A stretch of DNA of 64,000 nt from Methylobacterium sp. 17Sr1-1 (GTDB lineage Bacteria; Pseudomonadota; Alphaproteobacteria; Rhizobiales; Beijerinckiaceae), in assembly GCF_003173775.1 (NCBI RefSeq), contig NZ_CP029552.1, positions 5,149,001 to 5,213,000 on the forward strand, read 5' to 3'. Every line of letters begins with the position of its first letter. Within the stretch, counting starts at the first letter, position 1. Below the pieces are notes generated by a model. It made no database searches and was not told the origin of the DNA. It saw only the letters and a program-made list of their open reading frames with translations. The translations under genes were made by a program, and so were the position numbers. This document shows, piece after piece, positions 5,438 through 58,180 of the stretch.

Positions 5438-5562
5438 GCGACAGTGTCATCGCGCGGCCTGTGGCGGATTAGCACCACGGGTCGGGCGGCGATTGTTTCC
5501 GCCCTGTTTTCGCCACAGCCCGGCGGCCAACCCGTTCGATGTTTTTCGAACGGGAGGGGACC

Positions 5563-6147
5563 ATGACCCGTCTGACCGCACCGCGGCGCCGCTTGAGGCC
5601 GATCCTGGCGGCGACAGCCCTGCTGAGCCTCGCGGCGCCGGCCCACGCCATCGGCCTGCTCGAGCGCGGGCCGATCGCCGACTTCCTGACGGTGTTTCGC
5701 CAGCAGGGCGTGCCGCGCCAGACCATCGGCTGGAACAGCCCCTACAAGCCCGGCACGGTGGTGATCTCGACCAGCCAGCGCCGGCTCTACTACATCCTGC
5801 CGAACCAGGAGGCCGTGCAGTACGGCGTCGGCGTCGGCCGCGAGGGCTTCTCCTGGGCCGGCACCAAGACCGTGACGATGAAGAAGGAATGGCCGTCCTG
5901 GCGCCCGCCGGAGCAGATGATCAAGCGCCGCCCCGACCTGCCGCGCTACATGGCCGGCGGCAACGACAACCCGCTCGGGGCGCGTGCGCTCTATCTCGGC
6001 TCCTCGCTCTACCGAATCCACGGCTCGAACGAGCCGGAGACGATCGGCGCGGCGGTGTCCTCGGGCTGCATCCGCATGACCAACCGGGACGTGATCGACC
6101 TGTACGATCGCGTGAAGGTGGGGACGAAGGTGGTGGTGTTGCCGTAG
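5563..6147 (+). CDS. L,D-transpeptidase (YkuD family), exported
   Basis: The predicted 194-residue protein starts with an Arg-rich n-region and hydrophobic core ending in APAHA (cleavage expected near residue 29). The mature part holds a YkuD domain: VVISTSQRRLYY, then YGVGVGREGFSW, and the catalytic segment HGSNEP followed by SSGCIRM with the nucleophilic Cys. These enzymes form 3-3 peptidoglycan cross-links or attach lipoproteins to peptidoglycan in the periplasm. GGGAGGGG sits just upstream of the chosen ATG. It is monocistronic as far as the sequence shows; a palindromic repeat begins about 27 nt after its stop. Confidence 0.9.
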   Translation: MTRLTAPRRRLRPILAATALLSLAAPAHAIGLLERGPIADFLTVFRQQGVPRQTIGWNSPYKPGTVVISTSQRRLYYILPNQEAVQYGVGVGREGFSWAGTKTVTMKKEWPSWRPPEQMIKRRPDLPRYMAGGNDNPLGARALYLGSSLYRIHGSNEPETIGAAVSSGCIRMTNRDVIDLYDRVKVGTKVVVLP

Positions 6148-6174: not shown

Positions 6175-6283
6175 GCGAAGCGGCTGTGTCGGCGTTGTGC
6201 TGATAGATGGAGCCGCTTCGCGGCACTTCTCGCGCTGGATCCCGGATCTCCTTCCGCTTACGCTGCAGTCGTCCGGGAAAGGG
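6175..6283. repeat. Truncated copy of a palindromic repeat (copy C)
   Basis: The inner hairpin stem GCGAAGCGGCT (6175-6185) pairs perfectly with AGCCGCTTCGC (6211-6221). The right arm then continues to GTCCGGGAAAGGG at 6283, closely matching the right arms of the copies at 6610-6780 and 57601-57773. The outer part of the left arm is missing. The element ends only 10 nt before the GIY-YIG start codon. Confidence 0.8.
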
Positions 6284-6293
6284 CGGTGCGCGC

Positions 6294-6557
6294 ATGGCGA
6301 AGGGCGGCTTCGTCTACATGCTGGCGAGCGGGCGCAACGGCACGCTCTATCTCGGATCGACGGCTGATCTGTGCCGTCGCATCTATGAGCATCAGCAGGC
6401 TCATACGCCCGGATTCACGACTCGCTATGGCGTACTAAACTTGGTCTGGCACGAGCAGTATGCACTCATCGTTGATGCCCGACATCGCGAATACGCGCTC
6501 AAGAATTGGCGCCGTGCGTGGAAAATCGCGCTGTTCGAAACGATGAACCCGGAATAG
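6294..6557 (+). CDS. Small GIY-YIG-type nuclease-like protein
   Basis: The 87-residue protein is almost entirely a minimal GIY-YIG domain: FVYMLAS at residues 5-11, TLYLGSTADLCRRIYEH near 16-32 and the RAWKIALFETMNPE end. This is the UvrC/YhbQ-like class of small stand-alone GIY-YIG proteins, which are divalent-metal-dependent nucleases; cellular roles are mostly unknown. Related proteins normally continue about ten residues after NPE, so the TAG here may trim the tail. ATG 6294 is chosen because the conserved strand begins immediately after it; the longer reading would translate the upstream repeat. The ORF is bracketed by two palindromic repeats, copy C 10 nt before and copy A about 50 nt after. 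Confidence 0.75.
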   Translation: MAKGGFVYMLASGRNGTLYLGSTADLCRRIYEHQQAHTPGFTTRYGVLNLVWHEQYALIVDARHREYALKNWRRAWKIALFETMNPE

Positions 6558-6609
6558 CGTGATTTGTCAGCCGACTTGAACAATTAAACAAAGTGCATTT
6601 CCGCCTCAC

Positions 6610-6780
6610 CCCTCTCCCGGACGACTGCAGCGAAGCGGAAGGAGATCCGGGACCCAGCAGAAGAAGTGCCGCGAAGCGGCTCTGTATGCTGCACCGTTGC
6701 AGACATAAAGACGCTTCGCGACTTTTTGCGCTGGATCCCGGATCTCCTTCCACTTCGTTTCAGTCGTCCGGGAAAGGGAG
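6610..6780. repeat. Palindromic repeat, full copy A
   Basis: A left arm of about 75 nt (from CCTCTCCCGGACGACTGCAG to CGAAGCGGCTCTG) and a right arm (from ACGCTTCGCG to GTCCGGGAAAGGG) are inverted copies of each other, separated by a loop of roughly 25 nt containing TGCACCGTTGCAGACA. The same arms and loop occur at 57601-57773. It lies between the convergent GIY-YIG and D-lactate dehydrogenase-like genes, where it could fold as a long transcript hairpin. Confidence 0.85.
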
Positions 6781-6836: not shown

Positions 6837-8255
6837 CTACACCGCCACGACCTTCCCCGGGTTCATGATGTTGTCCGGATCGATCGCCCGCTTCAGTGTC
6901 CGCATCAGGTTCAGCGCCTCCGGCCCGTGCTCCAGCTCCATGAAGCGCATCTTCTTCTGGCCGATGCCGTGCTCGCCGGTGCAGGTGCCCTCCATGGCGA
7001 TGGCGCGGGCGACCAGGCGCTCGATGAAGCCGGTGACCCGGGCGATCTCGTCGGGATCGTCCATCATCACGAGCGGCGAGGTGTGGAAGTTGCCGTCGCC
7101 GACATGGCCCGCGATCGGCGCGGTGATGCCGCTCTCGACGATGTCGCGCTTGGTCTCGTCGACGCATTCGGCGAGCCGCGAGATCGGTACGCAGACGTCG
7201 GTGGCGATGACCCGCGCCCCCGGCCGCAAGCCGACCGCCGCCCAGTAGACGTCGTGGCGCGCCTGCCACAGCCGGGTGCGGTCCTCCGGCTTCGTCGCCC
7301 ACTCGTAGGGACCGCCCTCGAACTCCGCCGCGATCTCGCCGAAGCGCTCGGCCTGCTCGCGCACGCTGGCATCCGTGCCGTGGAACTCGACCAGCAGCAG
7401 CGGGGTCTCCGGCAGGGTCAGCTTCGAGTAAGCGTTGCAAGCCGCGACCTGGACCTCGTCGAGGAGCTCGATCCGCGCCACCGGCAGGCCGGACTGGATC
7501 GTCACGATGACCGCGTCGCAGGCCGCCTTGATGCTCGGGAACGGGCACACGCCGGCGGAGATCGCCTCCGGGATGCCGGCGAGCTTGAGGGTCAGCTCGG
7601 TGATGATGCCGAAGGTGCCCTCGGAGCCCACCAGCAGCCGGGTGAGGTCGTAGCCGGCGGAGGTCTTGCGCGCCCGCGGGCTGGTGCGGACGATGTCGCC
7701 GTTCGGCATCACGGCGGTGAGCGACAAGACATTGTCCTTCATCGTGCCGTAGCGCACCGCGTTGGTGCCCGAGGCCCGCGTCGCCGCCATGCCGCCCAGC
7801 GACGCGTCGGCGCCCGGATCGATCGGGAAGAACAGGCCCTGGTCGCGCAGGTGCTCGTTCACGGCTTTGCGGGTCACGCCGGGCTGGACCACGCAGTCGA
7901 GGTCCTCGGCATGGACCGCCAGCACCTTGTTCATCCCGTTCATGTCGATCGAGATGCCGCCGAACGGCGCGTTGACGTGGCCCTCGAGCGACGTGCCGGT
8001 GCCGAAGGCGACGACCGGCATCTTGTGGGCGGCGCAGACGCGCACCACCGCCTGCACGTCCTCGGTGCTCGTGGCGTAGACCACCGCGTCCGGCGGCTGG
8101 TTGGCCACCCAGGTCAGGGTGCTGGCATGCTGCTCGCGCACCGCCTGCGAGGTGACGACGCGGTTGCCGAAGAGCGAGGTCAGCTCGCGGATGACGGCAT
8201 CCACGGTCTCCGGGGACGGGCGCTCGCGGGTGGGAACAGGGCTTGGGGCGTTCAT
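6837..8255 (-). CDS. FAD-linked D-lactate dehydrogenase / GlcD-like oxidase
   Basis: The 472-residue flavoprotein belongs to the FAD_binding_4 / FAD-oxidase_C family. The PCMH FAD domain shows PVVAFGTGTSLEGH and GADASLGGMAATRASGTNAVRYG with GYDLTRLLVGSEGTFG. The C-terminal catalytic half shows HVGDGNFH and the signature GEHGIGQKK near the end, finishing IMNPGKVV. Such enzymes oxidise D-lactate or related 2-hydroxy acids and pass electrons to the respiratory chain; D-lactate dehydrogenase (cytochrome) is the best match, with GlcD as the alternative. Start MNAPSP at 8255 is preferred over an upstream in-frame ATG at 8396 because the extra residues look unconserved. It is divergent from the thioesterase gene. 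Confidence 0.88.
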   Translation of the reverse strand: MNAPSPVPTRERPSPETVDAVIRELTSLFGNRVVTSQAVREQHASTLTWVANQPPDAVVYATSTEDVQAVVRVCAAHKMPVVAFGTGTSLEGHVNAPFGGISIDMNGMNKVLAVHAEDLDCVVQPGVTRKAVNEHLRDQGLFFPIDPGADASLGGMAATRASGTNAVRYGTMKDNVLSLTAVMPNGDIVRTSPRARKTSAGYDLTRLLVGSEGTFGIITELTLKLAGIPEAISAGVCPFPSIKAACDAVIVTIQSGLPVARIELLDEVQVAACNAYSKLTLPETPLLLVEFHGTDASVREQAERFGEIAAEFEGGPYEWATKPEDRTRLWQARHDVYWAAVGLRPGARVIATDVCVPISRLAECVDETKRDIVESGITAPIAGHVGDGNFHTSPLVMMDDPDEIARVTGFIERLVARAIAMEGTCTGEHGIGQKKMRFMELEHGPEALNLMRTLKRAIDPDNIMNPGKVVAV

Positions 8256-8482
8256 GGCGGGTCTCCCGGACGGTGTGGCGACCGGGCGGACCGGCCTTTT
8301 GCCGGCCACTCTAGCAGCCGTGTCCCGGCCGGCATATCCGGGCGCCCGGTCACGGAGAAGTGCGCTCCGGGGCTGACACCTTGCCCCAAGGTGCAACGCA
8401 TCCGGGGATGCATCCCTCGCCCAAGCGTGGTACGTCCCTGGGCGCCCTTGTCATCCCGCTTGCGCTCACCGGGAGCCCCACA

Positions 8483-57600: not shown

Positions 57601-57773
57601 CCCCCTTTCCCGGACGACTGAAACGAAGTGGAAGGAGATCCGGGATCCAGCACGAAAAGGGCCGCGAAGCGGCTCTGAAGTTTGCACCGTTGCAGACACA
57701 AAGACGCTTCGCGACTTTTTGCGCTGGATCCCGGATCTCCTTTCGCTACCGCTCCAGTCGTCCGGGAAAGGGG
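57601..57773. repeat. Palindromic repeat, full copy B
   Basis: The left arm (CTTTCCCGGACGACTGAAAC to CGCGAAGCGGCTCTG) and right arm (GACGCTTCGCGACTTTTTGC to CCAGTCGTCCGGGAAAGG) are inverted copies around a loop with TGCACCGTTGCAGACA, the same loop as copy A at 6610-6780. About 51 kb separates the copies. It lies in the gap between bkdR and the epimerase-like gene. Confidence 0.85.
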
Positions 57774-58180
57774 AAGAAGCGGAAGGAAATGTATCCCCAA
57801 TGGCTCTCGGCTACTCTCAATCCCAGCCGTATCCAACCTTCGCTATAGGCCAGTGTCTTGTTCCGCACGCATCGGCATTGCAGCGGATCAGGATTGCTCC
57901 CGCTCCACAGCTGTCAATCTGCCCGCAAGCCTGTTTGACCGATACATCGATCGTACGGGCATACAGACCGCCATCTCTCCACGTCATCCCGGGACTCGAG
58001 GAAGTCGAGAGCCCGGGATCCATAATCGCTAACGACCCCGGAATAGACTGAGCACAGTCCGCTTCGGCCTCGAACATCAGCGGTTATGGATCCCGGGTTC
58101 CGCTACGCGGCCCCGGGATGACATAGAGAGTGTCCATACGGTTGGGAGGAACAAGCGACGCCATCAGCGGTAGCCACCCC
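57774..58180. other. Repeat-containing gap downstream of bkdR
   Basis: No gene is supported. A second inverted repeat of a different type has arms at 57981-58032 and 58078-58123, each built around GTCATCCCGGG and CCCGGGATCCATAA. This is typical of intergenic repeats scattered in alphaproteobacterial genomes. Together with copy B, most of the 680-nt gap is repetitive. Confidence 0.6.

Follow-up and report, generated by a model that had tools for sequence, protein, structure and literature searches.

A stretch of 64,000 nucleotides from the genome of Methylobacterium sp. 17Sr1-1 (hereafter the window) contains a small open reading frame (ORF) for a GIY-YIG nuclease, which is closely bracketed by palindromic repeats. 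This locus raises the question whether nuclease and repeats form one system or only share the same intergenic space. Bracketing of related genes by repeats, co-occurrence of both in genomes, matching of repeat type to gene, presence or absence of the whole unit at a site and constraint on the enzyme were all observed. The probable answer, given with some reserve, is a system similar to that of the RAYT transposases and their repetitive extragenic palindromes (REPs), known as RAYT/REPIN, with a GIY-YIG nuclease in place of the Y1 (RAYT) transposase. The features of the window are the following:

5539..6147, plus strand: upstream flank gene, bordering the site with its 3' end
6175..6221: left small hairpin GCGAAGCGGCT..AGCCGCTTCGC, with an exact or near version at three empty orthologous sites
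6210..6283: left palindrome arm, 74 nt, in inverse orientation to the arm at 6610, ending 10 nt 5' of the ATG
6294..6557, plus strand: small GIY-YIG nuclease ORF, 87 aa, with a match to Pfam PF01541
6610..6778: full palindrome of about 170 bp (palA), 3' of the ORF, beginning 52 nt past the stop
6671..6719: central small hairpin of the palA copy at 6610-6778
6837..8396, minus strand: downstream flank gene, convergent with the upstream gene
57602..57773: third palA copy, without nuclease
about 57982..58123: palB, a CGTC-type REP dimer, beside the third palA copy

Bracketing of GIY-YIG genes by matching repeats

The 87-aa protein matches PF01541 over residues 5-77 (E 3.3e-12; 47 bits, against a curated cut-off of 22.6) and has little outside the GIY-YIG domain. 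Residues Y8, Y19, R29, E66 and N85 are conserved in the window ORF; among 21 proteins Y8, Y19, E66 and N85 are invariant and R29 is kept in at least 90%. These positions correspond to the catalytic Tyr, Tyr, Arg, Glu and Asn of the superfamily. The initial annotation placed the ORF between inverted palindrome copies with about 90% identity over some 73 nt. Measurement agreed with it: the left arm and the inverted left arm of the following palA copy are 92% identical over 74 nt. The distant third copy was also found as described, and none of the three PF01541 places in the window genome lies there. Folded as single-stranded DNA, the segment 6604-6784 reaches -73.7 kcal/mol, compared with -28.7 for shuffled sequences (z -12.7).

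Relatives of the protein were found in 63/111 genomes of the genus, with 1-4 matches each, some of them fragments, and in the phylum sample a genome holds up to 8 GIY-YIG matches. Strong palindromes or inverted repeats lie around or beside the ORF in 29 of the 30 genus loci fetched; only one locus (L037, in genome G070) is without them. To score bracketing, the 160 bp upstream and the 160 bp downstream of the ORF were compared for their best inverted match, a score of at least 40 being taken as positive. A set of 66 loci combined the 30 genus loci with 36 named loci, out of 38, that a scan of public genomes had yielded; in it, L042 and L043 repeat L013 and L014. In this set 44/66 loci were positive, compared with 1/3057 control positions of the same loci. 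The 30 best-matching loci of a search in 397 phylum genomes (three of them genus loci already counted) gave 19/30 against 0/256 controls. Forty loci were fetched from genomes with several paralogues, one being lost to a contig end and two repeating phylum-search loci; scored without controls, 31/39 had inverted arms, and 34/39 when direct arms were allowed.

Among ten named records, out of 31 matches in a plasmid collection, repeats flank the gene in eight, and control windows reach a score of 40 in 9/180 cases. The eight records belong to Sinorhizobium meliloti, Azospirillum lipoferum, Neisseria gonorrhoeae, Novosphingobium aromaticivorans, Planktothrix agardhii, Rhizobium sp. CIAT894, Shinella and Sphingobium, and the flanks of the Neisseria locus are dRS3-type units. 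The Photobacterium record has one REP only, downstream, and the Rhizobium tumorigenes record has no flanking repeats. Pooled and deduplicated, a pair of matching arms, in inverted or direct orientation and with a score of at least 40, was present at 113/137 loci and in 13/1508 control windows, so that the association above chance proposed by the initial annotation came out strongly. In three annotated replicon stretches, matching arms were found at 3/3 GIY-YIG genes, which were picked as such and already seen in the plasmid-collection set, and at 0/130 other coding sequences. The bracketed loci are mostly from Proteobacteria and come from several phyla in all; those outside Proteobacteria are a handful, from Pedobacter, Planktothrix and metagenome-assembled genomes labelled Armatimonadota.

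Two sites drew attention by their neighbours. On A. lipoferum AZO_p3 (L269/L278), the GIY-YIG gene has CGTC dimers on both sides and stands within the suf operon, with sufB and sufC as its neighbours. On plasmid p1 of Planktothrix agardhii (L273), the gene and direct REP-like dimers stand between an MmeI-like restriction-modification gene and drmA of DISARM.

Identity of the repeats and their match to the gene

Bacterial REPs have been sorted into GTAG and CGTC super-families (Di Nocera, De Gregorio, and Rocco, 2013; PMC3733652). In the portions of that survey used here, an enzyme is given for the GTAG super-family and none was found for the CGTC families, which "apparently lack a dedicated transposase"; beside CGTC REPs no transposase genes are reported save for a few associations termed fortuitous. 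Its authors suggest that these families are on their way to extinction or depend on transposases borrowed from elsewhere. The term "GIY" is absent from its text. In the open-licence PMC literature, with preprints outside the scope, no title or abstract opening linking GIY-YIG proteins to REPs was found; one paper, in the part considered, contains both GIY-YIG and RAYT, as separate entries in a table of Moraxella genes.

Most arms outside the clade of the window gene have the form CGTCATyCC-hairpin-GGrATCCA, for example CGTCATTCCCGCGAAGGCGGGAATCCAG, CGTCATTCCGGCGCATGCCGGAATCCAG, CGTCATGCTGAACTTGTTTCAGCATCCAT and CGTCATTCCGGGGCCGCGAAGCGGAACCCGGAATCCAG. When folded, these four all formed hairpins with an 8-bp outer stem, leaving CGTC and the tail unpaired. 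The CGTC tag, the stem of 8-9 bp and the CCA tail by which CGTC REPs are recognised occur in the repeats that bracket most relatives. A strict detector of such REPs found them on both sides at 73/138 loci compared with 6/1415 control windows, and on at least one side at 87/138 loci compared with 86/1415 (72/137 and 86/137 after deduplication). All of these loci are outside the window's clade, where they represent 73/124 and 87/124. Repeats with another head escape the detector, namely palA and the arms seen in Sphingomonas (CCACCCCGGCGAAGGCCGGGGyCCAG). At the 72 two-sided loci, the REPs nearest to the ORF point tag-outward in 40 cases, tag-inward in 17 and in the same direction in 15; some tag-inward loci have whole dimers on each side of the ORF. 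The tag-outward arrangement matches that of ORF-less HH dimers, whose tags lie outside. Judged by these features, the arms outside the window's clade belong mostly to the CGTC super-family (PMC3733652). CGTC REPs are the closest known repeats and went unnamed in the initial annotation.

In the window genome of 6.54 Mb, the palA repeat is present at 40 places or more (40 were scored out of 109 first-look candidates). The copies have common ends of the form CCCCTTTCCCGG and CCGGGAAAGGGG, the left end core being exact in 34/40 copies and the right one in 35/40. In the outer flanks (L140-L178), many copies have a degenerate ...AAGCCAC / GTGGCTT.. extension beyond the common ends, which would mark a preferred target or else an older element of greater length. 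The likeness of palA to CGTC REPs is limited to the inner ATCCAG end and the general palindrome plan, palA being longer, and a single folded palA arm was no better than shuffled sequences (z -0.45). We take palA to be a divergent, untagged relative of CGTC REPs. The palB type has the tag, stem and tail of CGTC REPs and brackets GIY-YIG genes in other Methylobacterium genomes; the CGTC pattern has 75 matches in the window genome. Here palB occurs in a genome whose sole small GIY-YIG gene is of the palA clade. The palB copies of the window genome would be either orphan repeats or mobilised by an enzyme of another clade.

The loci sort into many non-syntenic groups, and the repeat type was found to follow the gene. 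In Methylobacterium, all 13 loci of the window-gene clade (L012-L024, at three separate sites) carry the palA type, and 14 of the 17 other loci show palB-type matches (the exceptions are L037, L039 and L041). Paralogues of one genome have different REPs each, both arms of each gene being alike. For 22 genes of 8 genomes with strict-detector REPs on both sides, arm similarity was 0.88 within the own gene and 0.58 across genes of the same genome, a difference reached in 0/10000 permutations. An exception is genome G264, where two genes that are 95% identical have one common REP type. Across 87 loci (one duplicate), REP similarity correlated with protein similarity (Mantel r 0.31, 0/2000); after dropping the genus and close pairs, r was 0.195 (8/2000).

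Co-occurrence, occupied sites and constraint on the enzyme

In the 397 phylum genomes, REPs were searched with the pattern GTCATYCCN{8,36}GGRATCCAG. It was present in 107/397 genomes, and the reversed control pattern occurred once in each of two genomes; the pattern is narrow, and genomes with other REP heads were scored as REP-free. With a profile of the 21 proteins, 239 genomes had a GIY-YIG match, and in 112 of these the match was close (E <= 1e-15). This cut was set with the list already in view; at values between 1e-10 and 1e-25 the odds are 8.6-9.4. At least two REPs were found in 52/112 genomes with a close gene and in 24/285 without (odds ratio (OR) 9.4, p 2e-16); counted by family, the figures were 29/42 and 11/52 (OR 8.3, p 3e-6). 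Y1 transposases (PF01797) had no association with CGTC REPs in the same genomes (43/200 vs 33/197, OR 1.36, p 0.25). The association of nuclease and REPs was observed in genomes without a Y1 match (25/60 vs 8/137) as in genomes with one (27/52 vs 16/148). As side observations, weaker profile matches (E above 1e-15) may be UPF0213-like, and six genomes (G137, G146, G158, G170, G194 and G501) carry 119 to 515 CGTC-pattern REPs each, G146 having 161 of them and zero GIY-YIG matches at E <= 0.001, so that its partner enzyme may have been lost or escaped recognition.

Occupied and empty sites were compared at the window locus, which lies between convergent genes that we take to be YkuD-like (5539-6147) and FAD-linked oxidase-like (6837-8396). 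Orthologues of the downstream gene were found at 30 loci, seven of which keep the upstream neighbour of the window. The unit is present between the two genes in G000, G016, G036 (M. platani) and G106, with 597-696 bp of intergenic DNA, and absent at the same site in G105, G109 and G002, with 90-104 bp. This is the contrast between filled and empty sites that the initial annotation had called for. Each empty site has a single small hairpin (GCGAAGCGGCT..AGCCGCTTCGC in G109, near-versions in G105 and G002); at filled sites, by an alignment read by eye, the small hairpin occurs on either side, the two copies being inverted to each other. Three CGTC dimers of G000, at 5113427-5113684, 5139159-5139387 and 5144382-5144596, are absent from the aligned sites of G036, and the palB copy at 5134758 of G000 is also in G036. 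Among the rows listed, ORF-less pairs of TGAACTTG-type REPs (five genomes of one family) have starts 53-146 bp apart and the four nuclease-holding pairs of this type have starts 361, 368, 371 and 373 bp apart. By these spacings, the gene unit resembles a dimer whose gap holds an ORF.

The gene can stay at one site across several species. Being low-copy and able to keep its site, the GIY-YIG gene resembles RAYTs in its relation to the repeats: it looks less like an active transposon than like a resident gene with many non-autonomous palindromes as partners. The initial idea of a nuclease acting on the palindromes, or spreading with them as an autonomous unit, was therefore sustained in part: the association and the RAYT/REP comparison held, and the autonomous spreading fits less well with a low-copy gene that can keep its site.

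Mean ratios of nonsynonymous to synonymous substitution (dN/dS) were 0.07-0.18 in nine of ten groups, and the active site is conserved under purifying selection. The repeat-free genus locus L037 belongs to the sole pair with a raised value (0.49; a single pair), as if enzyme and repeats had been lost together there. A structure model resembles the nuclease domains of SLX1/HIGLE, UvrC and I-TevI. The family has a conserved core of its own, with the motifs GTLYxGVT and REKxxKNWRRAWKI.

A candidate mechanism and its alternatives

In the proposed RAYT/REPIN-like system, the nuclease would recognise and nick the hairpin typical of its own REP family, with the DNA single-stranded or in cruciform form. 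Nicking may allow the copying or movement of ORF-less dimers in trans, and the gene unit itself would move rarely. The GIY-YIG nuclease is the best candidate so far for the agent behind CGTC repeats, and the pairing offers a specific candidate enzyme for this super-family, with cognate pairs of enzyme and hairpin. A wider proposal, for which the chances are about even, is that CGTC REPs, neisserial dRS3 among them, owe their mobility to GIY-YIG nucleases of their own. They would then be minimal elements of several phyla and of RAYT-independent origin, with a structure-selective hairpin nuclease of about 90 aa as sole enzyme and a hairpin code for each gene clade. If true, a stand-alone GIY-YIG nuclease would, to our knowledge, be seen to run a prokaryotic mobile element for the first time. 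The proposal would also give a cause for repeats such as dRS3, to which PMC3733652 could assign no enzyme.

Several points weigh against the RAYT/REPIN-like system. Hairpin recognition, cutting and movement by the GIY-YIG system are steps that we infer, none having been observed, and no clear target duplication was found at the compared sites. Many loci share a site by descent and are non-independent, and 20/137 loci fail both the arm-pair test (score at least 34) and the two-sided REP test, six of which (L015, L019, L021-L024) retain palA-type palindromes on one side. At the genome level, 60 of the 112 close-gene genomes have fewer than two matches to the narrow pattern, 49 of them zero, and the 24/285 genomes given above have at least two REPs despite having no close gene. 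The remaining points concern the window itself. The ends of palA read CCCCTTTCCCGG in place of a CGTC tag, and the strict detector found no REP at L012-L024, the window's clade. The window ORF is shortened at its C-terminus: it is ended by the TAG at 6555-6557 and is without the W-x-DL tail (WRDL...) of about 10 aa present in most relatives, and same-locus relatives translate through this codon into the conserved tail. In G106 (M. terricola) the ORF copy is interrupted by a stop and in G016 (M. frigidaeris) it is frameshifted, while the palindromes stay. The truncation and the broken copies suggest that the gene may be decaying at this site while its palindromes persist. With an untagged palA and an ORF that ends early, the window copy is not the best example of the system.

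The strongest alternative, unlikely as it is, is a homing-type parasite: a free-standing GIY-YIG gene would invade REP dimers or hairpin terminators because insertion there is safe, and another agent would spread the REPs. I-TevI homing endonucleases have, by the structure model, the nuclease domain fold in common with this family, although the 87-aa protein has little beyond that domain. Homing is opposed by the genome-wide co-occurrence of REPs and gene and by a REP type that tracks the gene and not the site. As for another agent, Y1 transposases, the sole other enzyme family tested, are unassociated with CGTC REPs, and the neighbouring transposase genes mentioned in PMC3733652, as far as considered here, are the few fortuitous ones.

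Less probable still is a maintenance enzyme, kept by the host for genome stability, which resolves or trims REP hairpins, proximity to REPs then reflecting co-inheritance and not mobility. Purifying selection, the long stay at one locus in several species and the resemblance to SLX1, which acts on branched DNA, all speak for it. However, the gene is patchy (63/111 genus genomes) and broken in places, its diverged paralogues have their own REP each, and it is inserted at many unrelated sites, which together is unlike a housekeeping gene.

That Y1/RAYT transposases spread these REPs, with the GIY-YIG gene hitchhiking, is very improbable and already not supported. RAYTs are the known movers of GTAG REPs; however, PF01797 had no match in the window genome, CGTC REPs are unassociated with it across the 397 genomes, and the nuclease link persists in Y1-free genomes. 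Coincidence of small genes and terminator-like repeats in common intergenic space, to which the intergenic position of both and the window site between convergent genes would lend themselves, is refuted by the unbracketed 130 other coding sequences and by own-arm matching within genomes.

The RAYT/REPIN-like system was finally compared with known ones. With RAYT/REPIN (REPtron) it shares a low-copy enzyme gene with inverted REP flanks, many dispersed ORF-less inverted dimers and the matching of enzyme to REP; it differs in having a GIY-YIG nuclease and a CGTC tag in place of a HUH/Y1 transposase and a GTAG tag. MITEs (miniature inverted-repeat transposable elements) and their autonomous transposons are alike in pairing an ORF-bearing unit with ORF-less derivatives that have the same ends, although no clean target duplication was seen here. 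The CGTC REPs of PMC3733652, which include dRS3 of Neisseria and RPE-4/6 of Rickettsia, have tag, stem, CCA tail and dimers in common with most loci outside the window's clade; the portions used report no associated transposase gene, whereas here a GIY-YIG gene is bracketed. By sequence profile, UPF0213-type proteins (1zg2, 1ywl) are closest to the present family, and 1zg2, SLX1 and HIGLE are among the closest by modelled fold. The present family differs from UPF0213 and SLX1 by its own conserved core and its repeat context.
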